NCBI GenBank assembly: GCA_017557435.1
Contig: JAFYYR010000024.1
Span: 55,243 to 119,242 of the forward strand
Origin: Pseudobutyrivibrio sp.
GTDB lineage: Bacteria; Bacillota; Clostridia; Lachnospirales; Lachnospiraceae
DNA length: 64,000 bases
Reading direction: 5' to 3'
A program made the position numbers and the translations under genes. Of the stretch, positions 30,546 through 40,861 are shown piece after piece. A model generated the notes under the pieces. The model was not told the DNA's origin, made no database searches, and saw only the letters and a list, made by a program, of their open reading frames with translations. Positions within the stretch are counted from its first letter, which is position 1, and every line of letters begins with the position of its first letter.

Positions 30546-30782
30546 TTATACTGTCCCTCATTAAAACTTAATTTATACTTCCATCTAAAGAACTTGTTGT
30601 CCCTGCTCGTTCTAGTTAAATCATAGACTATACCAAAAATGACAAAATTTCTAGTCAAAATGCTTTTTTTAATTCTGCAAAAGCTCTTTAATTACAGTTT
30701 AATTTTTTACAGAAACAAGATTACCATTTCATGTGTGAATATGGTCTATATATTTTCCAATAATAGGAACACATTTTATAGC
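30546..30782. other. AT-rich intergenic region without genes
   Basis: Between the aldo/keto reductase start and the lipoprotein promoter. It holds two similar short runs (TTTTGACTAG and TTTTGTCAT on the minus strand) and several possible -10 boxes for the reductase gene, none convincing. I see no open frame with a ribosome site. Confidence 0.5.
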
Positions 30783-30811
30783 TTGACATATTATTTCTAT
30801 ACAGATAATAT
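30783..30811 (+). promoter_or_regulatory. Promoter of the lipoprotein gene, with a long leader
   Basis: TTGACA (30783-30788), 17 bases, TAATAT (30806-30811). The start codon lies about 150 bases further on. The leader contains AGCTGA and TCAGCT arms (about 30831 and 30885) and a GCTTATAAGC palindrome (about 30903-30912). Confidence 0.75.
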
Positions 30812-30966
30812 TGTCGCATATATTATATTTTAGCTGAAATCTGCATTGCATGGCACCGTATATAACATATAATATTATCTCAGCTATCTATAAATATCCC
30901 TCGCTTATAAGCAGGGTTAACTAAGAAACCTATTAGGGTTTCGCTTTTAAAAGGAGAATTAAAAAT

Positions 30967-32193
30967 ATGAAAAAGATTTTTACTATGATGCTTGTCGCAG
31001 TAATAAGTATTGCAACAATGCTTGGTTGTGGGAATCGTGAATCTACTGTAGAAAGTATAAGAGATTGTTCTTCGGCAGTAAGCGAAGTGTTTTTTATAGA
31101 TGCCGTATGGGATTATAGCAATAAAAACTATTCGGATAAAATAAAAAAGTATCATTCATTAGTAGTTATCAACGATGAACAGGTATCGGATGAGCTGGCA
31201 GACAATTCTGCAACGAGTATTGGAAAAGAGTACATAGCTCTCCACCATGAAGAACTCAAGGATTATTTTGAGAAGAATAAAGATTATGCTATCGAATGTG
31301 AGGTTTCGCGTAAATATGATGAAAATCAAATCGAGGTTACAGAATGGTTCCCATCAAAATTGTCAATAGAAATGGAAGACTGTAACAGAGAGTATTCAAT
31401 TTCTAAAGTTACGATGCGTTGTTCACTTAACAACATACCAAAAGATAGACCTCTTACTGTATACTCTAGTGATATAGTTGAAAATGGCGATGACAATTGC
31501 TATTCAGATGGTTTATCATTTGCCTTCTATGGGGAACTCTTGTCCGAAGAAAAAAAAGAGACTACAAATCTTATTTCAACTGATGAGCCAGAGGAAGATA
31601 CTAGCGTAGAATCAGTGGCATACATTCCGTGGAGATACTATGGAACCATTGCAGATGTAATTGATAATGGCGATGGAACCTATAATATTACATTCACTGA
31701 TTGTGAAGAGGCTAATGAAGTGCATATTTCTCAAACTATATACGATAATCTTTCAGTTGGATGCGAATTACCATTTAAGTCATATATGAACTACAATTTT
31801 ATCTGTTACGATGACAGTGATGGTTACTATTTCTCAGAGGATGGACTTAAAAGCAATGATTGGGAAATATTCTGGATTTCAGATAAAAACAAGGCGCCTG
31901 ATGGTTCCATTAAGGTGTTCCATCACAACTATTCTTTAGGAATGGGATACGAAGAATACCTGGACTGTATTGATAAGGGTACTATAACATGTACTGTTAG
32001 TGGTGATGCTTGGATTAAGATTCGCGATAATAATAATGATGTAATCAAATATACATTTGATGAATTCTATAAAAATGACATTAATTCTAACAAAAAGTAC
32101 TTGGATACTTGGAGACATCTCTATACGATGGAAATACATTTCAATTCATCTGGAGAAATTGATAATATGCTTGAGGTAATTATTGCAGGATAG
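30967..32193 (+). CDS. Putative lipoprotein of unknown function
   Basis: 408 residues. MKKIFTMMLVAVISIATMLGC is a lipoprotein signal peptide (first 20 residues shown by features: basic start, hydrophobic core) with Cys21 as lipid site. The mature protein is acidic, rich in Asp, Glu, Tyr and Asn, with no domain I recognise. The middle (DVIDNGDGTYNITFTD) looks like a beta-strand-rich fold. AAGGAG lies before the ATG. It has its own promoter and terminator and lies next to the tRNA-derived repeats, so it may belong to the accessory region. Confidence 0.75.
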   Translation: MKKIFTMMLVAVISIATMLGCGNRESTVESIRDCSSAVSEVFFIDAVWDYSNKNYSDKIKKYHSLVVINDEQVSDELADNSATSIGKEYIALHHEELKDYFEKNKDYAIECEVSRKYDENQIEVTEWFPSKLSIEMEDCNREYSISKVTMRCSLNNIPKDRPLTVYSSDIVENGDDNCYSDGLSFAFYGELLSEEKKETTNLISTDEPEEDTSVESVAYIPWRYYGTIADVIDNGDGTYNITFTDCEEANEVHISQTIYDNLSVGCELPFKSYMNYNFICYDDSDGYYFSEDGLKSNDWEIFWISDKNKAPDGSIKVFHHNYSLGMGYEEYLDCIDKGTITCTVSGDAWIKIRDNNNDVIKYTFDEFYKNDINSNKKYLDTWRHLYTMEIHFNSSGEIDNMLEVIIAG

Positions 32194-32220
32194 GTGAAGA
32201 ATATCTATAGGATGACCATT

Positions 32221-32255
32221 AATCCCCAGAGTAGAATATCTGCTCTGGGGATTTT
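32221..32255 (+). terminator. Terminator after the lipoprotein gene
   Basis: AATCCCCAGAG (32221-32231) pairs with CTCTGGGGATT (32243-32253) over 11 bases; the tail is TTTTG. Confidence 0.92.
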
Positions 32256-32299
32256 GTTAGTTTAGGCTGAAAAACAACAATCCTAAAGACTCTCGTGCC

Positions 32300-32321
32300 G
32301 AGGCTGAGGAGGCTCGAACTC
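32300..32321 (-). repeat. Copy A of the tRNA-Lys 3' end (attachment-site-like repeat)
   Basis: 22 bases identical to 40737-40758, the T arm and acceptor 3' strand of tRNA-Lys, in the same orientation. The rest of the tRNA is absent, so this is a remnant and not a gene. The 50 bases that follow resemble those after copy B (GAAAGAAAGG, then TTGCC and CTCTGCA). Confidence 0.85.
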
Positions 32322-32404
32322 ATCTCGGTCTCAAAAAATATTGAAAGAAAGGCATTTGTTGCCTCTGCATTTATAAGTTAAACCACAGGTTAAACCTATT
32401 ATCA

Positions 32405-32707
32405 CTATATCTCTCTTCCCTGATACTGCACAGTAACAACCAAAACTCTACCATTACCTTCATCAATTCTAAATATAGCAATATAGTTATCAATAATTAA
32501 TTGTTTATATCCTTTACCTGCATATCTACCAGTTATTCTATCTTGATGAGATTCAGGCAATGTATCGAGCCCTAGTATAGCTTCTTTTATTCTATCAATC
32601 TGTCCCTTTGCATTTTCAGGAGACAGCTTTTCATAAGCAATATAAGCAAATATTTCTTCAATATCCCTATATGCTCTAGGCATTAACTCTACACTGTACT
32701 TATTCAA
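32405..32707 (-). CDS. RelE/ParE superfamily toxin
   Basis: 100 residues. It opens NKYSVELMPRAYRDIEEIFA, typical of ParE/RelE toxins, and ends with IFRIDEGNGRVLVVTVQYQGRE, where the arginine-rich strand and late Tyr/Arg fit the fold. Chosen start is TTG at 32707, with GGAGA nine bases upstream; it overlaps the antitoxin stop codon by eight bases. In-frame ATG codons further up lie inside the antitoxin gene and have no ribosome site. ParE-type toxins hit gyrase, RelE-type cut mRNA; which applies is not clear. Confidence 0.85.
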   Translation of the reverse strand: MNKYSVELMPRAYRDIEEIFAYIAYEKLSPENAKGQIDRIKEAILGLDTLPESHQDRITGRYAGKGYKQLIIDNYIAIFRIDEGNGRVLVVTVQYQGREI

Positions 32708-32963
32708 AATACTTTTTCTCCAATTCTGCAAAAGCATCCTTCGCATCTACTGTCTTGCCTGTCTCAGCAAACTCCTGCTCTGCCTCAAAAATAGCCTGAT
32801 CTATGCGATTTTCTCTTGCAAACTTCTCGTATAATTCTGCGCTCATAACCACAAGATCACTATATCCATTTTTTGTGATAAAAATAGGTTCTTTTTTTCT
32901 ATGTGCAATTTCTGATATTTCACTTGTATTTCTTAAATCTCGTATAGGCATAATTGTTGGCAT
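32700..32963 (-). CDS. Phd/YefM family antitoxin
   Basis: 87 residues. MPTIMPIRDLRNTSEISEIA is the Phd/YefM DNA-binding opening; KKEPIFITKNGYSDLVVMS is the core strand motif; an acidic helical tail for toxin binding follows. AAGGAGG precedes the ATG. It is the first gene of the pair and likely binds the palindrome in its own promoter. Confidence 0.92.
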   Translation of the reverse strand: MPTIMPIRDLRNTSEISEIAHRKKEPIFITKNGYSDLVVMSAELYEKFARENRIDQAIFEAEQEFAETGKTVDAKDAFAELEKKYFE

Positions 32964-32988
32964 AATAATTACCTCCTTATTTGCTTTA

Positions 32989-33017
32989 ATTGTAGCATAA
33001 TTATGCTGCGCTGTACA
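32989..33017 (-). promoter_or_regulatory. Promoter and operator of the Phd-RelE/ParE pair
   Basis: TGTACA (33012-33017), 17 bases, TACAAT (32989-32994) on the minus strand. The perfect 12-base palindrome GCATAATTATGC (32995-33006) fills the spacer next to the -10 box and fits antitoxin autorepression. Confidence 0.65.
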
Positions 33018-33054
33018 TGTTTTAAATTAGTTCATTATATAATTCAGATAAAAC

Positions 33055-33088
33055 AAAAAACACGTAAGCATTTGCTTACGTGTTTTTC
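33055..33088. terminator. Bidirectional terminator beside tRNA-Lys copy B
   Basis: AACACGTAAGCA (33059-33070) pairs with TGCTTACGTGTT (33073-33084), flanked by A on the left and T on the right. On the minus strand it would stop transcripts from the KAP gene. Confidence 0.85.
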
Positions 33089-33113
33089 TTGCTGAGGCTG
33101 AGGAGGCTCGAAC
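33089..33113 (-). repeat. Copy B of the tRNA-Lys 3' end (attachment-site-like repeat)
   Basis: 25 bases identical to 40732-40756: the end of tRNA-Lys plus four bases beyond its 3' end, same orientation. It lies next to a terminator hairpin, as the tRNA-Lys copy does. Together with 40732-40756 it brackets the accessory block. Confidence 0.88.
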
Positions 33114-33195
33114 GCTCACTCAGCCCTGAAAAAACTAGAAAGAAAGGATTTTGCCGTCTCTGCAAATCTTGGTCTCGACTCAGGTCTCGATACAA

Positions 33196-36100
33196 TCATT
33201 CTTTTCTACGTCTTGTGTACCATCCCTTTAGACCAGGATCAATCAATAAATCATAGCATTTGCCATAGATAGTATCATCAAATAGTAAGTTATCGTTGTT
33301 AACTACATTTTGAACAAAACAATGCGCAGCATCCTTATCTTTAAAACGATAAATATTTTTCAAATATTCAACAATAATTTCCAACTTAAAATTACTAAAT
33401 AGATATTCTAACAACTCCTTTGTTTGGGAACCATATGAATAATTTATAATACGTTCCTCAGCATGTAAGTACTCTTTTTGTTCTATGAGTTCATCAACAA
33501 ATTCATGGTTATCACGCATTATCTTCTGAGTTGGAATTCTACCACTCATATTAAAAATCCTAACATAACTCTTCCAAAGCTTTTCTCTTCTGTCTTCCTC
33601 AATCCTAAATTCTCTTTGCCCGCGTACCTTTGAACTAATATAAGTAATATAGTAGTCCTGTTCAAAAAGCTTTTCATTAATTGCATCACTATACACGTAG
33701 TTAGTTTTAAGTTTTAATATATTATTTAATGTGCATGGTTCAACTTTATCCAATGAATTGGCAAATGTAACATATGCTTCCTCTTGCTCTTTATCCAATC
33801 TATCAGATAATTCACTCTCCAAAGATGGTATCGAAACTCGTAAAAATGTTAAAAGCTTTATTATTTTATCAACATCATCATCTATTTCAAATTTCGAAAC
33901 TATCAATCCTTCAATCTCTTCCCTACGTTTTTTGCTCATAGCAGAATAAGAAAACATATTCATATCTAAATCATAAAAAGCTTCCTTTGCCAAATTGATA
34001 GGCATTGACATTATAAATTTTATTATCTCATAAGTCGCCTTAGAGTTTCTCTTATTAGAAGAAAAATACTTTGCCATTACAGCAAAACACTTCTTATATC
34101 CATATTTTTCCAAAAGCATCAGTGCATCTTCGTATTTAACAATCAAATTTAATTCCTCTTCTGTAATAGGAGACGCCTCCGAAAATAGAAAATCATATTG
34201 AACTAATAGATTTGATTGTTTTAAAATTGCTTTTCTAATTGTCTGGTACTTTTCTGTTTCGTTTTCCCTAAGATAGTCCTGATACTCTCTAATACTTTCT
34301 TTTATCTCTGACGATTCAAAATCAATAGTTTCTCTGGAGCTTGCAATCTCACCAATTATATAATCAATAAAATAACCAGCCTTATAGAGTGCACCACTTA
34401 AATTCGCTGATATTGGCCCGCTCCATTCCCTTTCTGAATATAGTGCAAAAGCATTTTCTGTAAATTCCTCACAGCACCCCAATGCCGCTACGTAGTCCGA
34501 ATCGACGATAACCTCGTTTTCTAACGCAATTCTATACTTCTCAACAAACACCTCCGGAAATTTCTTTGTCAAACAAAGCCATTCAAAAATTTTATTATTC
34601 CAAGCATCAAGCCCCATTTTATCAATCACGTTTTCATAAAAATATTGAGCCAGATGTTCATCCACCTTATTATTAGGATTCGAAACAATCATTGAATGTA
34701 CTTCATTCAAACTCTTTTCGTTTATCTCAGATTTGTCTTTCCCAAAATTCATTAATCGAATGACATTTTCACAATTCTCAATTATCTGCACTTCCTCTTC
34801 AGTAATAAAAGGATTATCCTTTTCAAACAAAAGACTATAATTAATTATTTCATCTTTAAAAGATTTACAAATCTCCTTTCTAATCTCAATCAAACAGTTT
34901 TTATCTTCAACGCTCCGAAGCAAGGCTTCTAATATTTTTTTTACCTTTTCTTTTTTATCATCACACTCTGGCATATTCGTTAAACAAGTAAGCACAAATG
35001 CCTTTGACGAAGAAATATTATTAACATCATATTTTCGATTTTCTATCAGTTCTATTACCTTACTTTCGAAAAAATTAACGACAGAGCTATATACAATTTT
35101 GTCCTCTACCACGAACTCAGGAAATGGCAAGTTCAGTTCGTTTCTCTTACTTAATGCGTCATTTATTACACTCAAATCTTTCTCGATTAATTGAACTTCA
35201 TGAATCGGCTCATTATAAACAAGACCATTATAAATCTTTAACTGCCTAGCATTGTATACTTTTGAGCCATTAGGAATATTATAAAAATAACAACGAAAAT
35301 TATGATCTAATAACTTGTTCTGAATAAATGAATCCAAAATATCCATACAGTCTTCCGATAAATCAATTTCAAGCTGGTCCGCAGTATTTCTTACCGTATG
35401 TTCTATCACATAACCATCCAGTAATAAATCTATAATTTCATCTGTTAATTTAATAAAATCTGACTCATAGTTAGTTTTAAAGTAAACCGCTGCAGCGCAC
35501 TTCTGAAATAAATCCTCATCATTCAACGAATCACATATTTTTTTTGCTCTCTTATATGTTAGCAATGCCTGATTCAATCTATTTTTAATATCACGTATAC
35601 TAGCATTTCTACCATATGTAACCCAATGCAGCCCCTTAATCGAGTTCATGGTAATCTCAGTTTCTTGATTTTTTATTAAATTTAATTCACAAAGCTCTTT
35701 CTTATAAGAACCAAGCAAACCACATATTATAGCCTCTTTATTATCACCGGTAATAGATGGAAGGCTGATAATATAATCAAATACCTTAGTATAAAAAAAA
35801 CGCTCAGAAGGATTATCTTCTGTTCCATTCAAAAGTGTTTCAGGCTTTATACAAACTATAAATGTTACGGTATTATTATTCTTATTCTCCTTCTCATTCT
35901 TTTCGATAAAATAATATCTACGCAACTCTTTTATAAAGCTCTCCACAGCATTCATATCTGAAGTTCGATCTAAGTCTTCAATTACAAATATATAATGTGT
36001 CCCTTTCTCCTTTCTATAGAACTCTTTTCTAAAAAGATCAACAATTACAGTATCATCAATTTCTCTTTTTCCCTCTTTTTTGGCAGAGGAAAAAACAATA

Positions 36101-36780
36101 TCACCACTACAAAGGACAAAAATTATTAGTCCAAGTCCTACAACAAAACAACATACTTGTATTAAATCAATTATTCCGCCGTCATTAAATACAATCTTAC
36201 AGATTGATTTTAATTGTTCATTATTTTTAATTATTTCAAACCCAACTAACGATTGGCCTATCGTTTCAACAAGCCAAGAAAGGACGCTTTTTATAATGTC
36301 CTTAAAAAAAGCAATCACTATAAAAATAACACCTAGTTTCGATAAGCAAGTATGTCGTTTATTCTCACTTACAAGAGATAGCAATCCGTAATCAGAGCTG
36401 AGTCTTCTAGAAATATACGAACCAAGATGGGAATCTTTTGAAGAAACAGCCTGATATAAGAATGATTTGTGGAGCTGTTTAGTGATATTAACAGAAGCCT
36501 TATCACCGCTATCATTAATTATATGCCACAAATTTACAGATATTATCTTTGTATTGACTGGACGTCTTCTTTTTAGTAAAGATATTAAACTTGACTTACC
36601 TGTACCAAAGTCTGCTTCTATACCTATAACATTAGCGCCTTTTTCAATAGCACATTCTAAAGAATCAACATAATCATCTAATCCTATTTTGTCATCTGCT
36701 AAATTATCAATCGGTTGATTAAGAACTACGATATTTGGACTCTTAGAAATATTTACATTTTCAGAAACACCATTCTTCAT
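33196..36780 (-). CDS. KAP family P-loop NTPase (PifA-like), large
   Basis: 1194 residues. Walker A IEADFGTGKSS is at about residues 53-64 and Walker B YIFVIEDLDR at about 263-272. Two hydrophobic segments (about 148-169 and 207-224) lie between them, the KAP hallmark that places the protein at the membrane. The remaining 900 residues are helical, charged and unassigned. The family includes F-plasmid PifA, which blocks phage T7; a phage-exclusion role here is inference. GGAGA lies six bases before the ATG at 36780, preferred over 36819. Composition is more AT-rich than core genes nearby, and it sits inside the tRNA-Lys-bracketed block. Confidence 0.85.
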   Translation of the reverse strand: MKNGVSENVNISKSPNIVVLNQPIDNLADDKIGLDDYVDSLECAIEKGANVIGIEADFGTGKSSLISLLKRRRPVNTKIISVNLWHIINDSGDKASVNITKQLHKSFLYQAVSSKDSHLGSYISRRLSSDYGLLSLVSENKRHTCLSKLGVIFIVIAFFKDIIKSVLSWLVETIGQSLVGFEIIKNNEQLKSICKIVFNDGGIIDLIQVCCFVVGLGLIIFVLCSGDIVFSSAKKEGKREIDDTVIVDLFRKEFYRKEKGTHYIFVIEDLDRTSDMNAVESFIKELRRYYFIEKNEKENKNNNTVTFIVCIKPETLLNGTEDNPSERFFYTKVFDYIISLPSITGDNKEAIICGLLGSYKKELCELNLIKNQETEITMNSIKGLHWVTYGRNASIRDIKNRLNQALLTYKRAKKICDSLNDEDLFQKCAAAVYFKTNYESDFIKLTDEIIDLLLDGYVIEHTVRNTADQLEIDLSEDCMDILDSFIQNKLLDHNFRCYFYNIPNGSKVYNARQLKIYNGLVYNEPIHEVQLIEKDLSVINDALSKRNELNLPFPEFVVEDKIVYSSVVNFFESKVIELIENRKYDVNNISSSKAFVLTCLTNMPECDDKKEKVKKILEALLRSVEDKNCLIEIRKEICKSFKDEIINYSLLFEKDNPFITEEEVQIIENCENVIRLMNFGKDKSEINEKSLNEVHSMIVSNPNNKVDEHLAQYFYENVIDKMGLDAWNNKIFEWLCLTKKFPEVFVEKYRIALENEVIVDSDYVAALGCCEEFTENAFALYSEREWSGPISANLSGALYKAGYFIDYIIGEIASSRETIDFESSEIKESIREYQDYLRENETEKYQTIRKAILKQSNLLVQYDFLFSEASPITEEELNLIVKYEDALMLLEKYGYKKCFAVMAKYFSSNKRNSKATYEIIKFIMSMPINLAKEAFYDLDMNMFSYSAMSKKRREEIEGLIVSKFEIDDDVDKIIKLLTFLRVSIPSLESELSDRLDKEQEEAYVTFANSLDKVEPCTLNNILKLKTNYVYSDAINEKLFEQDYYITYISSKVRGQREFRIEEDRREKLWKSYVRIFNMSGRIPTQKIMRDNHEFVDELIEQKEYLHAEERIINYSYGSQTKELLEYLFSNFKLEIIVEYLKNIYRFKDKDAAHCFVQNVVNNDNLLFDDTIYGKCYDLLIDPGLKGWYTRRRKE

Positions 36781-36851
36781 CAATCTTCTCCAGTTAAATA
36801 TAATTAAATCGGTTATCATTATTAGAGTGTAACACTCCTTTTTATATAATA

Positions 36852-36863
36852 TCGTATATACGA
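36852..36863. promoter_or_regulatory. Palindrome in the KAP gene promoter region
   Basis: TCGTATATACGA is a perfect 12-base palindrome about 70 bases before the KAP start, followed on the minus strand by a TATTAT -10-like box. A second dyad GAGTG-TTA-CACTC lies at 36825-36838. Possible operator; no regulator gene adjoins. Confidence 0.35.
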
Positions 36864-36948
36864 AATTTTTTATATAACAACTTTAATAATAATTACATTA
36901 AAATAGCGATTACTAGAATTATCTATCTAATAATCGCTTCAATTGTTC

Positions 36949-38115
36949 TTATTGTGCAAATTCCCACTTATAACCATAAGCAGTCTTTTTTACGCCATGA
37001 CCAGGCGTATATCTCTTGATACATACGTCACTTATAGATGTTTTACAATTTGTATTCTTAGCTTTTCCTACAGAAACTAACCACTCCGCTGCCGCCTGCT
37101 GACTTTTAAAAGTCATTAGAACTTCACCAGTTTGCAGGTCTAGCATATTAACCGGCTTGCTACACTTAGCTCTTGAAGCAGCACTTCTTTTCTTTGCAGC
37201 TTCTGGGTGTTTCCTATGATATTCTTTTAAAGAATCACTTCGCTTCTTCTCAGCCTCAGGTGAGTGTTGCGCCTCAATCAACTTATCCTTATAAATCTGG
37301 TACTGCTCAGCATTCTCAGTTCGCCACTTTTTCAAAGAAGCATTTCTTTTAGACTTACTCTCCTCAGATTGCATAGCTAGCTTATTATTCTCTCGAGCTT
37401 TAGCATACGCCTCGGGATTATTCTCCATCCAATTCTTAATGCGCTTACTCATCATTTCACGATACTTGTCATCGCTCATTGTCTGCTTGATTCTTTCAGA
37501 CCTCAGCTGCAACGAATGAGTCATTTTACCAGACTGAAATAACTCTTTTGAACGCTCTATCATCTTCTGATATCTTTCTGGATGAGCAATCATATATTCT
37601 CTAATCTTCTGATTTCTTTCTTCTGTGCTGTGATGTGTAGTGCCTCCACCACCACATACCAAATTCAGGCAAAAAGGGTCTTGTAGCAAATCTTCAGTCA
37701 CAATCCTTGCTTCAGCCTCTTCCGATTCCTTACCATTCATACATGATAAAATATAGTACCTTACGAATTGCTCTTTATGCTTGTTATATTTGTTAACAAA
37801 TTTCAAGCCAGAACCCTGATACTTCTTAATTGAACTCCATCTCTCCCTATTTACCTTGCCAATATAATACTCACAAGTCTCTATATTGATCTGTATATAA
37901 ATAAAATGATACTTCCCGTCTTCAGTTTTCAGATTTTCTCTTACCATATAAGATGGTGTTAAAACTTCATAAGGTATATCATTAATATATATAGTTTGGC
38001 CCAAATCACCCATCATCAAGTGTTGCATCTCTTCAAAAGGAATCTCACCAATAGCTTTGAATCCCAAACCATACTTTTGTGTAATCCTTATTTTTTCAGA
38101 TGTAAATACTTCCAA
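36949..38115 (-). CDS. GIY-YIG homing-endonuclease-like protein with NUMOD-type repeats
   Basis: 388 residues. HFIYIQINIETCEYYIGKVN (about 70-88) is a GIY-YIG motif, FIY...YIG, followed by KKYQGSG, as in phage Seg-type nucleases. Residues about 165-310 hold repeats of basic helices (RSERIKQTM, EESKSKRNASLKKW, EAEKKRSDSLKEYHRK), resembling NUMOD3 DNA-binding units. The C-terminal 70 residues (VNMLDLQTGEVLMTFKS, KTAYGYKW) fit a NUMOD1/IENR domain. It is free-standing; I see no intron. It lies between the KAP gene and an ion channel gene. Confidence 0.8.
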   Translation of the reverse strand: MEVFTSEKIRITQKYGLGFKAIGEIPFEEMQHLMMGDLGQTIYINDIPYEVLTPSYMVRENLKTEDGKYHFIYIQINIETCEYYIGKVNRERWSSIKKYQGSGLKFVNKYNKHKEQFVRYYILSCMNGKESEEAEARIVTEDLLQDPFCLNLVCGGGGTTHHSTEERNQKIREYMIAHPERYQKMIERSKELFQSGKMTHSLQLRSERIKQTMSDDKYREMMSKRIKNWMENNPEAYAKARENNKLAMQSEESKSKRNASLKKWRTENAEQYQIYKDKLIEAQHSPEAEKKRSDSLKEYHRKHPEAAKKRSAASRAKCSKPVNMLDLQTGEVLMTFKSQQAAAEWLVSVGKAKNTNCKTSISDVCIKRYTPGHGVKKTAYGYKWEFAQ

Positions 38116-38144
38116 AATACTCCCTTGCTAACGCTAATTAGTTA

Positions 38145-38867
38145 TTAAATATTTTTCTCTTCATTAAGTTCTTCCATAAACCCAGCTGTAATTACACCAG
38201 CTGGCATGGCCACAATTGCAATACCGATAAATGAACTAAGCATTGTAATTAATTGCCCCGCTGGAGATACAGGATAAATATCTCCGTATCCCATAGTTGT
38301 AAGTGAAATTGTCGCCCAGTATACAGCATGAAAATAATCTCCAAAAGTATCAGGTTCAACATTCAGTATTACTAGAGCTGCCACAAGAATATAAACAATT
38401 GCAATTCCTATAATTGTAAGAAATGCATCACGCTGTTTCTGAAATACTCTTATGAATATTTGAAGATTCTTAGAATATCTGGCTGCTTTAAATACTCTGA
38501 ACACTCTAAGTGTTCTTAACAATCTAAATATCTTAAGAAGTCTCCATCCACTATTCAATATAGTCAACGATGGTAGAATCGAAACTAAATCAATAATGGC
38601 CATTGGTGTGAACGGATATAGCACAAATGACTTTAATCCTCGATTAAGTTTCAAATCAGCTGTGATAAGCCTTAAAACATAATCAATTATGAATATTACT
38701 GCCGACACCTTATCAATAATATTAAATACGGTATTTGTAGTTGTGAATGCTAATGGAATAATACTGATTATGATTGTGAGTAGCATAAAGGTATCGTAAA
38801 CATCACTTAGCTTATCATCATCTTTTGAAACCTCGATAACCTCAAACAATCTTTTTCTTTTTGACAT
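38145..38867 (-). CDS. Voltage-gated-type potassium channel
   Basis: 240 residues with six hydrophobic helices. The S4-like segment has regular Arg residues (WRLLKIFRLLRTLRVFRVFK, about 108-127). The pore has TTMGYGDIYP (about 190-199), the K+ selectivity filter. It is a short KvAP-like subunit without a large C-terminal domain. It lies inside the tRNA-Lys-bracketed block and is divergent from the secreted nuclease gene, an unusual location for a channel gene. Confidence 0.9.
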   Translation of the reverse strand: MSKRKRLFEVIEVSKDDDKLSDVYDTFMLLTIIISIIPLAFTTTNTVFNIIDKVSAVIFIIDYVLRLITADLKLNRGLKSFVLYPFTPMAIIDLVSILPSLTILNSGWRLLKIFRLLRTLRVFRVFKAARYSKNLQIFIRVFQKQRDAFLTIIGIAIVYILVAALVILNVEPDTFGDYFHAVYWATISLTTMGYGDIYPVSPAGQLITMLSSFIGIAIVAMPAGVITAGFMEELNEEKNI

Positions 38868-38931
38868 AATAAACCCCGCTTTTATTTATAAGTTATGAAT
38901 GGTTCCCCAAAACGTTATATTTCACATTATT

Positions 38932-38959
38932 TTTACATTTCTATGCTAATCTGTAATAT
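38932..38959 (+). promoter_or_regulatory. Possible promoter for the secreted nuclease gene
   Basis: TTTACA (38932-38937), 16 bases, TAATAT (38954-38959). The -10 lies close to the ribosome site (GGAGGTG at about 38963), giving a very short leader. Confidence 0.35.
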
Positions 38960-38975
38960 ATCGGAGGTGAAGCTT

Positions 38976-39887
38976 ATGAGAAGTATTTTTAAGCTTAGAA
39001 TTTCACTAGTAACAATTATATCATTTTTGATTATATGCGTAACTCCTGACTTATCTTACCAAACCCAAGCAGCTGAAGCTATTCCTGCTTATTCTGGTTC
39101 ACCATTCATCGCAATCAATAATAATATACCTGCGTTTTCTGCAACTGATTTAACCAGAACAGATGCGTTTGAAGTTTATTCTGATTTGGATAAATTAGGT
39201 CGTTGTGGAGTTGCATACGCTAATATATGCAAAGAACTTATGCCTACCGAAGAACGCGGAGAAATCGGAATGGTTAAACCTTCTGGCTGGCATACTGTAA
39301 AATATAATGACTTGATAGATGGCAACTATTTATACAATCGTTGTCATTTAATCGGATATCAACTTGCTGGTGAAAATGCCAATACAAAGAATCTAATCAC
39401 TGGCACTCGTTATATGAATGTCACTGGCATGCTACCAATTGAAAATGCCGTGGCGGACTATGTTGAAAAAACCAATAACCACGTACTATATAGAGTTACA
39501 CCTATCTTTGAAGGAAATAACCTAGTAGCAACATATGTGCAAATGGAAGCATGGTCTGTAGAAGATCAAGGCAAAGGTATATGCTTCAATGTTCTTTGTT
39601 ATAATGTGCAGCCAGGTATAGCTATAAATTATGCCAACGGTGACAGTGCTGCAACAGGCGAAGCAGTTGCTACAACGCCTTCTAAAACTCAAACTTCAAA
39701 ATCAACTACAAGTGTTCAATCATCTAGCTCTACTTCTGGTAGCAATGTAACCGTATATTTGCCTGCTAGCGGCAAATGCTATCATAGTAAAAATAACTGC
39801 GGGAGAATGAATCCTTCAAAAGCCACTGCAACAACTGAATCAAATGCGCTCGCACAAGGTTATAGTAGATGCTCAAAATGTTGGTAA
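38976..39887 (+). CDS. Secreted DNA/RNA non-specific endonuclease
   Basis: 303 residues. A Sec signal peptide ends near residue 36 (TQAAEA). The nuclease domain has YNRCHLIGYQLAGEN, the His of the DRGH-like motif in the form NRCH, and KNLITGTRYMN with the metal-binding Asn. A Ser/Thr-rich linker leads to a C-terminal cysteine-rich tail CYHSKNNCGRM...YSRCSKCW, common on such proteins. It acts outside the cell, in DNA uptake or nutrition. GGAGGTG lies six bases before the ATG at 38976; an in-frame ATG at 38895 lies before the likely promoter. Confidence 0.88.
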   Translation: MRSIFKLRISLVTIISFLIICVTPDLSYQTQAAEAIPAYSGSPFIAINNNIPAFSATDLTRTDAFEVYSDLDKLGRCGVAYANICKELMPTEERGEIGMVKPSGWHTVKYNDLIDGNYLYNRCHLIGYQLAGENANTKNLITGTRYMNVTGMLPIENAVADYVEKTNNHVLYRVTPIFEGNNLVATYVQMEAWSVEDQGKGICFNVLCYNVQPGIAINYANGDSAATGEAVATTPSKTQTSKSTTSVQSSSSTSGSNVTVYLPASGKCYHSKNNCGRMNPSKATATTESNALAQGYSRCSKCW

Positions 39888-39897
39888 TTAAAACTAT

Positions 39898-39930
39898 AAC
39901 CCGTGACAAATTGTCACGGGTTACTTTCTT
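39898..39930 (+). terminator. Terminator between the nuclease gene and higA
   Basis: AACCCGTGACAA (39898-39909) pairs with TTGTCACGGGTT (39911-39922) almost without a loop, followed by ACTTTCTTTT. It may also serve higA from the other side, where ATAGTTTTAATT follows. Confidence 0.85.
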
Positions 39931-39940
39931 TTCTTCACTA

Positions 39941-40231
39941 CTACTGTTTTACTGTTCTAGGAACAAGTTCCAGCTTCAACTGCATTCCCAAACCTTCTGC
40001 TAGCCTTTTCACCATAGCAAGGCTAGGATTGCGTGTTCCATTCTCTATACGACTAATATCAGCCTGTGTAATACCTGTTTTAGCTGAAAGATCCTTCTGA
40101 GTCATATGCTGATTAATTCTAGCATCAATCATTGCCTGAATTATATCGTACTCTGCTTCAAGTGAATCATACTCCGACTTTACTTCAGGGTCTTTTAATG
40201 CTTTTTCTTTATATTCTCTATAACTGCTCAT
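39941..40231 (-). CDS. higA: XRE-family antitoxin (HigA-like)
   Basis: 96 residues. A helix-turn-helix of the Cro/CI type: MTQKDLSAKTGITQADISRI, then GTRNPSLAMVKRLAEGLG. In HigBA pairs the antitoxin follows the toxin, as here; the genes overlap by four bases (ATGA). Confidence 0.9.
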   Translation of the reverse strand: MSSYREYKEKALKDPEVKSEYDSLEAEYDIIQAMIDARINQHMTQKDLSAKTGITQADISRIENGTRNPSLAMVKRLAEGLGMQLKLELVPRTVKQ

Positions 40232-40575
40232 TTACAATACCTCCGCTCATAATCAGTTTTATACTTCTTAGCCAGTTCAATCTCTGCTTTTGGTGTCTTT
40301 TGAGTTTTCTTTACAAATCCATTTGTAAGAACAGCTTTCTGACCAACAAAGAAAAAATAGAACACTCTAGTAATATTTGAACCTTGCTTAGTCCTAAGCT
40401 CAAATATCCCATCTCCCATTGGTCCAGAATGTGGGTCCCGCAGCAACGGACCATTAGCTTCTAGCAAATCAATAGTTCTAAGTGCTTTCGCATGCATTTT
40501 TGGTTCCAATGAATCCAAAAATTCTTGGACAGGGCATCGACCTTCCTCCGTATCGTACAACTCAATCTCGTACAT
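40228..40575 (-). CDS. higB: RelE/HigB family toxin, Gp49-like
   Basis: 115 residues. It opens YEIELYDTEEGRCPVQEFLD and contains FELRTKQGSNITRVFYFF and FVKKTQKTPKAEIELAKK, the Gp49-like HigB pattern of a ribosome-dependent mRNA cleaving toxin. It is the first gene of the pair. A palindrome overlaps its promoter. The pair lies within 160 bases of the tRNA-Lys end, at the edge of the bracketed block. Confidence 0.92.
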   Translation of the reverse strand: MYEIELYDTEEGRCPVQEFLDSLEPKMHAKALRTIDLLEANGPLLRDPHSGPMGDGIFELRTKQGSNITRVFYFFFVGQKAVLTNGFVKKTQKTPKAEIELAKKYKTDYERRYCK

Positions 40576-40598
40576 TTATATAAGTCCTTCCTAAAAAT

Positions 40599-40627
40599 AT
40601 AATATGTCGTATAGAACATATTGTCAA
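40599..40627 (-). promoter_or_regulatory. Promoter and operator of higBA
   Basis: TTGACA (40622-40627), 17 bases, TATTAT (40599-40604) on the minus strand. The inverted repeat ATATGT (40602-40607), eight bases, ACATAT (40616-40621) covers the spacer, a fit for HigA autorepression. Confidence 0.85.
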
Positions 40628-40694
40628 GGTGTTCCCTTCACAACTGTTCATACATATATAATTGTACTCACAAGCATGCCCCTATATATGTACA

Positions 40695-40726
40695 CGAAAA
40701 AGCCTCCAGACAAAAGTCTGGAGGCT
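40695..40726 (-). terminator. Terminator of the six-tRNA operon
   Basis: AGCCTCCAGAC (40701-40711) pairs with GTCTGGAGGCT (40716-40726) around AAAA; minus-strand tail TTTTCG follows. It lies ten bases after the tRNA-Lys 3' end. Confidence 0.92.
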
Positions 40727-40731
40727 TTCCT

Positions 40732-40758
40732 TTGCTGAGGCTGAGGAGGCTCGAACTC
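40732..40758 (-). repeat. tRNA-Lys 3' end, parent copy of the attachment-like repeats
   Basis: 40732-40756 is identical to copy B (33089-33113); 40737-40758 is identical to copy A (32300-32321). This copy lies in the intact tRNA-Lys gene, and the bracketed block lies on its 3' side, as expected for an element integrated at a tRNA end. Confidence 0.85.
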
Positions 40759-40808
40759 CCGACAACCTGATTAAAAGTCAGGTGCTCTACCAACTGAGCT
40801 ACAACCCC
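40736..40808 (-). tRNA. tRNA-Lys (TTT)
   Basis: Acceptor GGGGTTG pairs with CAGCCTC, discriminator A, anticodon stem CTGA/TCAG with loop CTTTTAA, T arm GGGAG-TTCGAGC-CTCCT. No encoded CCA. Last gene of the six-tRNA operon; its 3' end is repeated at two distant sites. Confidence 0.95.
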
Positions 40809-40861
40809 ATATTCAATTACTAAGCGGTATCTAGCTAAAAGAAAAAGGCATAGATCCGAAA

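Follow-up and report, generated by a model that had tools for sequence, protein, structure and literature searches.

When a tRNA-Lys gene is followed by copies of its own 3' end, with accessory genes between them and no integrase nearby, what kind of element does the locus represent, and how might its parts have come together? In the window, i.e., the whole 64,000-nucleotide stretch of a Pseudobutyrivibrio genome analyzed here, two such copies can be recognized, a nearer one (B) of 25 nt and a farther one (A) of 22 nt. Both match the tRNA end exactly and lie in the same orientation, as a first-pass annotation of the locus had recorded; its remark that B runs past the gene likewise holds, the 25-nt identity taking in two bases beyond the tRNA. 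By simple arithmetic, a 25-nt repeat arises by chance in 64 kb with a probability of the order of 1e-6. A query with the tRNA-Lys 3' end against the assembly (2.84 Mb, 96% complete) returned six places, namely the tRNA, B, A and three at 82–85%; no further copy beyond the tRNA, B and A is present in the 2.84-Mb assembly. The likeness of A and B is wider than the annotation saw, since a right end of about 90 nt lies upstream of both cores; together with the hairpin after B, this shared sequence indicates that the repeat exceeds the tRNA end.

Units of the window and of related genomes

Read along the tRNA strand, the order within a unit is tRNA core, terminator hairpin, cargo and conserved right end (Table 1). 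The hairpin after the tRNA core was not flagged by the terminator scan that caught the one after B. The annotation had listed a KAP NTPase, a GIY-YIG nuclease, an ion channel, a secreted nuclease and HigBA within 7.6 kb. HigB, HigA, the ion channel and the non-specific endonuclease are clear, whereas the other two are weakly supported: neither a Pfam match for the 1207-aa protein nor a GIY-YIG family match in Pfam for its neighbor was obtained, although Walker-like motifs read by eye in the former fit KAP. The Phd-ParE pair and the decayed third right end were absent from that list.

Table 1. Features of the tRNA-Lys locus in window coordinates, with places of a recombinase gene in other fetched stretches (L numbers)
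Feature	Position	Strand	Basis
tRNA-Lys(ttt), landing gene	40734-40809	minus	ARAGORN
Core copy 1, from T-loop of tRNA-Lys to 2 bases past its 3' end	40732-40756	minus	
Terminator-like hairpin right after tRNA core, left end of unit 1	40698-40728	minus	read from sequence
HigB-like toxin (Gp49, PF05973)	40228-40575	minus	Pfam
HigA-like antitoxin (HTH_3)	39941-40231	minus	Pfam
DNA/RNA non-specific endonuclease (PF13930)	38970-39887	plus	Pfam
Ion channel (PF00520)	38145-38867	minus	Pfam
GIY-YIG/homing-endonuclease-like protein	36949-38115	minus	weak, PADLOC HEase 2.8e-4
1207-aa P-loop protein, KAP/PifA-like	33196-36819	minus	weak, PADLOC PifA 2.5e-5
Right end B; arm repeats of TCGAGACC type, 12-bp period, at 33171-33190	33114-33208	minus	
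Core copy 2 (B), 25 nt, equal to tRNA end	33089-33113	minus	
Terminator hairpin after core B, left end of unit 2	33055-33088	minus	terminator scan
Phd/YefM antitoxin (PF02604), between A and B	32700-32963	minus	Pfam
ParE toxin (PF05016), between A and B	32405-32746	minus	Pfam
Right end A; arm repeats of GGTTTAAC type, 12-bp period, at 32377-32396	32320-32413	minus	
Core copy 3 (A), 22 nt identical	32300-32321	minus	
408-aa protein, cargo of third unit	30967-32193	plus	no Pfam match at 0.001
Decayed right end of third unit, core lost	30587-30648	minus	model R1, 22.5 bits, E 2.7e-4
342-aa Xer-like recombinase gene	L123:4991-6019, L129:4878-5909, L135, L136, L137, L138		

Judged by its sequence, the locus comprises three or more units in tandem and does not fit the single 7.6-kb island proposed in the annotation. 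Compared with G013, the nearest relative fetched, the window holds two extra stretches, at about 33.2–39.9 kb and at 30585–32295. The second ends in the decayed right end, which borders on the sequence common to the window and G013 (ending at 30584) and marks a third unit; its 408-aa gene has no counterpart at the same place in G013. Beside the tRNA both genomes carry HigBA; in G013 it is a separate cassette, complete at 0.9 kb and closed by a right end of its own. The first unit of the window lacks the HigBA right end. Hence, the 7.6-kb piece is probably a fusion in which the start of a HigBA cassette is joined to the end of another. The palindrome GTGACAATTTGTCAC has one exact place in the genome, at 39903–39917 on the junction of HigBA and the nuclease, and also occurs beside some cassette left ends in relatives.

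That elements integrate here at the tRNA 3' end, as the annotation had suggested, is supported by G019 and G007, in which a Phd-ParE cassette, the one that follows B in the window, stands directly at the tRNA, with strong homology from 85 nt inside the unit. The empty site proposed as a check was thereby recovered in part: the unoccupied layout is seen in both genomes, but the alignment is gapped from the terminator to the start of the toxin–antitoxin (TA) genes, and a strictly empty tRNA-Lys site was identified in none of the relative stretches.

Regions downstream of tRNA-Lys were fetched from 18 genomes of the same genus and later from a few more. Extra cores with at most 3 mismatches occur in 12 of the 21 stretches bearing tRNA-Lys, the window counted, and the other 9 have none at that threshold; in one of the 12, G016, the copy is without the conserved right end. 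Two contigs (G023 and G024) have a core with a right end and lack the tRNA; in a further one, G017, the right flank of the core diverges. The Phd-ParE pair is kept in stretches of G005 and G028 that have no extra core; such persistence of cassette genes suggests that cores may decay. In stretch L051 (G011), the variant CTCAACC is common to all three cores, pointing by its sequence to local exchange or to donors of the same lineage.

The cargo across the arrays, which often consists of TA genes and for which Pfam was run on representatives of the relatives' ORFs, includes Phd-ParE, HigBA, DUF3791/DUF3990, Bro-N, DUF3800 and zinc-ribbon proteins, together with RhuM (PADLOC PDC-S05) accompanied by a GyrI-like protein, HD-CE with an HSP90-like ATPase and, in the window, the block of KAP-like, GIY-YIG-like, ion channel and nuclease genes. 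In arrays with at least two cores, 40 of the counted ORFs (those in a family or of at least 100 aa) share the strand of the tRNA and 2 lie opposite. Following the array in many relatives is a conserved block headed by shikimate kinase.

The shared right end, cassette order and transfer

Despite their differing cargo, 19 right ends can be aligned over about 90 nt plus the core. In 15 of them a pair of 8-bp direct repeats (GGTTTAAC or TCGAGACC) is spaced at a period of 12 bp, and in all 15 detections on the tRNA strand these arms lie 77 or 78 bp before the core; the full pair is missing from four right ends (L042, L044, the second of L051 and L123). When 20,000 random 45-mers were drawn from the window, 104 had an exact repeat of 12-bp period as their best one. 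Looser arm matches on the opposite strand number three, two being the same repeats read backwards; the match in L125, 1.4 kb from a core, was judged to be chance. Folding of the aligned right ends with RNAalifold yielded no conserved structure (consensus −0.81 kcal/mol, 3 pairs, no two-sided changes), and an attC-like hairpin site was rejected on that ground.

A strict pattern for this right end, which within the window matches A and misses B, was found in five stretches of genome_contigs and in none of viral_contigs. Four of the five belong to Pseudobutyrivibrio or 'Butyrivibrio fibrisolvens 16/4' records; the fifth, from Kiritimatiellaceae, has no tRNA and was judged to be chance. Across 250 genomes of the family, the right-end model matched in 6, among them that of the window; the other five matches (6e-5 to 5e-4) come from outside the genus, do not lie at a tRNA and were likewise judged to be chance. 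In 29 genomes of the genus, 35 matches were listed. Of these, 19 are strong, spread over 13 genomes and nearly all identical with the rows used to build the model; among the weak ones, 9 are of a tRNA-Gly type and 2 lie near tRNA-Lys (the decayed right end of the window and one in G005), and five others (17.7–20.2 bits) have no recognizable tRNA core and were attributed to chance.

The nine tRNA-Gly-type matches score 18–23 bits with the model built on tRNA-Lys ends. In eight, the core equals the 3' end of tRNA-Gly(GCC); in the ninth, from G006, it is not clearly recognizable. The tRNA-Gly itself is present on 4 of the 8 stretches fetched. The spacing from a CTTTCTnT motif to TTCRAG is 25–26 nt at tRNA-Gly and, by eye, the same at tRNA-Lys; repeats of about 12 bp lie upstream at both, less exact at tRNA-Gly (6–7 of 8 positions), and in L183 the best repeat lies elsewhere. 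Given these low scores, the link between the two kinds of site rests on layout as much as on score.

The cassettes also change slots. An array-against-array BLAST gave 43 matches, not independent of one another, that join different slots. Of these, 16 begin no more than 5 nt from a core on both sides of the comparison, a zone with about 1% of the array bases, and 13 end at a core in both genomes (in a wider zone, −5 to +32). In all, 28 of the 43 do one or the other, the slot changes breaking at the core, and 15 do neither. HigBA precedes ParE in G013, whereas in G019 ParE precedes a unit that has kept higA and lacks both higB and the distal core. The Bro-N cassette is first in G006, G009 and G012 and second in G011 and G016; that with DUF3791 is first in G002, G003, G005, G015 and G018 and third in G011. 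The presence of the same cassettes in different order in relatives points to modular swapping by an enzyme encoded elsewhere.

Between G013 and G019, the ParE cassette is 96.9% identical and the HigA part 97.3%, against 80.6% for the Xer gene over about 550 nt and 69–76% for the flanking chromosome. Cassettes at 97% against 81% for that part of Xer seem to move between species. Fifteen cassette pairs were compared, 5 of them without an Xer value; in nine of the ten comparisons with one, the cassette is more similar than this host gene. The exception is Bro-N in G009 and G011 (80.4% against 82.0% for Xer), a pair that leaves transfer unsupported. Decay, which the annotation had offered as one way to account for the absent integrase, is therefore insufficient by itself, given that the same right end recurs with varied cargo and that cassettes are more alike across species than the host gene.

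The search for a mover and the competing explanations

The annotation had seen no integrase, and a local profile of 42 integrases, run on frames of at least 50 aa, agrees with it: a tyrosine recombinase was found neither in the window nor in 22 relative stretches, and no recombinase or relaxase is among the Pfam matches of nine scanned window proteins. In G005, a mobilizable element of about 12.4 kb extends from tRNA-Gly; beside the tRNA it encodes a 491-aa tyrosine integrase, and further on VapE, a DnaG-type zinc finger and a MobA/MobL relaxase. Its own right end has a degenerate core, and an intact Gly core is found on a second right end 118 bp outside. G021 has a shorter tRNA-Gly unit without an integrase match, and G013 and G004 have tRNA-Gly units with integrase remnants, that of G013 being a stop-bearing piece of 40 residues of the 491-aa integrase. 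Loci of the relatives of this integrase mostly hold tRNA genes, chiefly Gly and Leu with some Arg (23 of 28 scanned loci in the genus, out of 30 fetched, and 6 of 8 outside it). None of the 28 or the 8 holds tRNA-Lys, and thus the type of the helper can be inferred and its Lys-specific form is missing. A helper of this kind, i.e., the ~490-aa integrase of the tRNA-Gly mobilizable elements in a Lys-specific version, is the likely one. The 491-aa protein had no match on plasmids (1e-40) or phages (1e-20).

Other recombination genes were encountered in these genomes. In the window genome, stretch L092 (G000:C5) encodes a tyrosine integrase of about 460 aa, 27% identical to the 491-aa one, whose end lies some 100 bp away from a tRNA-Arg(acg) gene within a tRNA cluster. 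L204 (G009:C24), read by eye, presents an integrase, repeats of about 12 bp, a terminator, a tRNA-Gly core and then the right end of another element, which looks like tandem accretion at tRNA-Gly. A gene for a 342-aa Xer-like recombinase recurs at 97–98% identity at six places in six genomes (Table 1), with mostly unrelated flanks, divergence setting in at the ORF ends or no more than about 80 bp from them; from this it looks like a one-gene mobile unit. Upstream of the tRNA-Lys core of G017 (L123:10522-15397), genes resembling Tn7-type TnsA/TnsB/TnsC/TniQ were read from the sequence.

The explanation that we consider probable is that the locus consists of tandem integrase-less cassettes at the 3' end of tRNA-Lys that are moved in trans by an integrase. 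Each cassette would comprise a presumed attP, made up of the right end with its pair of arm repeats and, behind it, the 3' portion of tRNA-Lys; a terminator would follow, and then cargo genes that mostly point the same way as the tRNA. A tyrosine integrase supplied in trans would act on the core of the cassette and recombine it with the end of the tRNA gene or with a core copy already in place; this would restore an intact tRNA, and the 3' end that is displaced would serve as the following core. Circular intermediates, a crossover inside the core, binding of the trans-acting integrase to the arms and selection through the TA or defense cargo would be parts of this mechanism. The unoccupied layout of G019 and G007, the similarity at tRNA-Gly and the integrase-bearing element there favor the proposal, as far as sequence comparison goes.

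Alternatively, the cassettes could have come long ago with ordinary islands and be shuffled now as right ends, cores and terminators, which together offer about 150 bp of similarity, undergo homologous recombination. The likeness among right ends and among cores would suffice for pairing, no tyrosine recombinase was found at the locus and the first unit of the window is fusion-like; yet, such pairing leaves unexplained the same right end at a fixed arm distance on unrelated cargo, the 16 matches that start at a core in both genomes and the similar layout beside an integrase-bearing element, and we regard it as unlikely. Movement by the host's own Xer recombinase, as in pdif modules, which that enzyme mobilizes, appears highly improbable: G013 and G011 hold arrays and have a single PF00589 match each among the matches listed, that of G013 being 91% identical to the Xer gene of the window genome, but the core is by eye a tRNA end without inverted Xer arms and the integrase-bearing relatives use a different, longer integrase. 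There is just as slim a chance that one decayed 7.6-kb genomic island with chance debris, suggested by the 25-nt repeats that bracket the block, would account for three units, recurrent right ends and the separate occurrence of HigBA and ParE in relatives. The probability that the 342-aa recombinase is the mover is close to negligible, for although it lies 1.1 kb from a core in G017, and the right flank of that core copy aligns with cassettes, the five other copies at 97–98% identity have no core (at most 4 mismatches) in the fetched stretch.

Returning to cassettes moved in trans, a wider reading, possible and put forward tentatively, is that tRNA genes in Pseudobutyrivibrio act as integron-like capture platforms, where cassettes from a circulating pool of TA and defense-type genes are collected and reordered by helper integrases not kept on site, with the arm types serving as helper addresses. 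The cassette class would then be defined by one right end, exchangeable arm sites of 12-bp period and its own terminator. The arm types are GGTTTAAC and TCGAGACC at tRNA-Lys, AGGTGwyCCC at tRNA-Gly and GGGTTCCC at one end whose core is unclear.

If the movement in trans is real, small TA and defense-type genes spread between related species as single cassettes by a route other than integrons, and the cassettes have a defined DNA end that is open to searches and tests. The locus would then be a concrete case of integrase-less elements with intact ends that have moved recently, beyond mere remnants, and the array model would predict the class of integrase to test.

Comparison with known systems

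Integron gene cassettes form arrays of small units that mostly lie on one strand, have their recombination site at one end and include TA cargo, traits that the units described here share. Unlike in integrons, the site is a tRNA end and the units carry a terminator; the right ends hold no conserved attC hairpin, and beside the array, the place of integrase and attI in integrons, no tyrosine recombinase was found. The integrase and relaxase proper to integrative mobilizable elements (IMEs) that insert at tRNAs are both present in the tRNA-Gly element of G005 and were not found in the array.

Ccr recombinases are of the serine type. The ssrA islands of Dehalococcoides, as described in the cited passages, are numerous and tandem, and 20-bp copies of the RNA gene's 3' end bound them, with a conserved 15-bp motif beside the repeat; 15 of them lack an integration module, and their integrase was compared with Ccr recombinases (PMC3146451). 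The tandem units bounded by 3'-end copies of an RNA gene, some devoid of an integrase, are alike; in contrast, the related integrases here are of the tyrosine type, and the RNA gene and the cargo are others.

For streptococci, the cited sections describe cis-mobilizable elements (CIMEs) in accretion that have kept attL and attR, lost integrase and transfer genes and lie in tandem at the 3' end of the target, with 215 at tRNA-Lys(CTT) in S. agalactiae and classical sizes of 1.2–13 kb (PMC5704250, PMC7563491). Integrase-less tandem units at the 3' end of a target gene are common to both. Copies of the attachment site flank units 1 and 2 of the window, the third having lost its distal core, and no integrase or transfer genes are seen in the window by the tyrosine profile and the Pfam scan of nine proteins. 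As for parentage by deletion from an ICE or IME, the layout of the right end resembles that of the tRNA-Gly IME and decayed integrase pieces lie at tRNA-Gly in G013 and G004, but there is no parent at tRNA-Lys. Set against those CIMEs as described there, the stretches examined here have no integrase-bearing element at tRNA-Lys, and several units are below 1 kb with a single TA pair and are reordered across species. In Ca. Methylopumilus, an additive flexible genomic island with tRNA-Lys repeats is described (PMC10872708), from another bacterial group and, in the cited part, with no conserved cassette end or mechanism given.

An earlier description naming Pseudobutyrivibrio was not among the 10 of 466 literature matches listed, which shows absence from print weakly. 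What appears to set these arrays apart from the known kinds is the combination of very small cassettes, a conserved end with exchangeable arms, apparent recent transfer and reordering, and no integrase on site.
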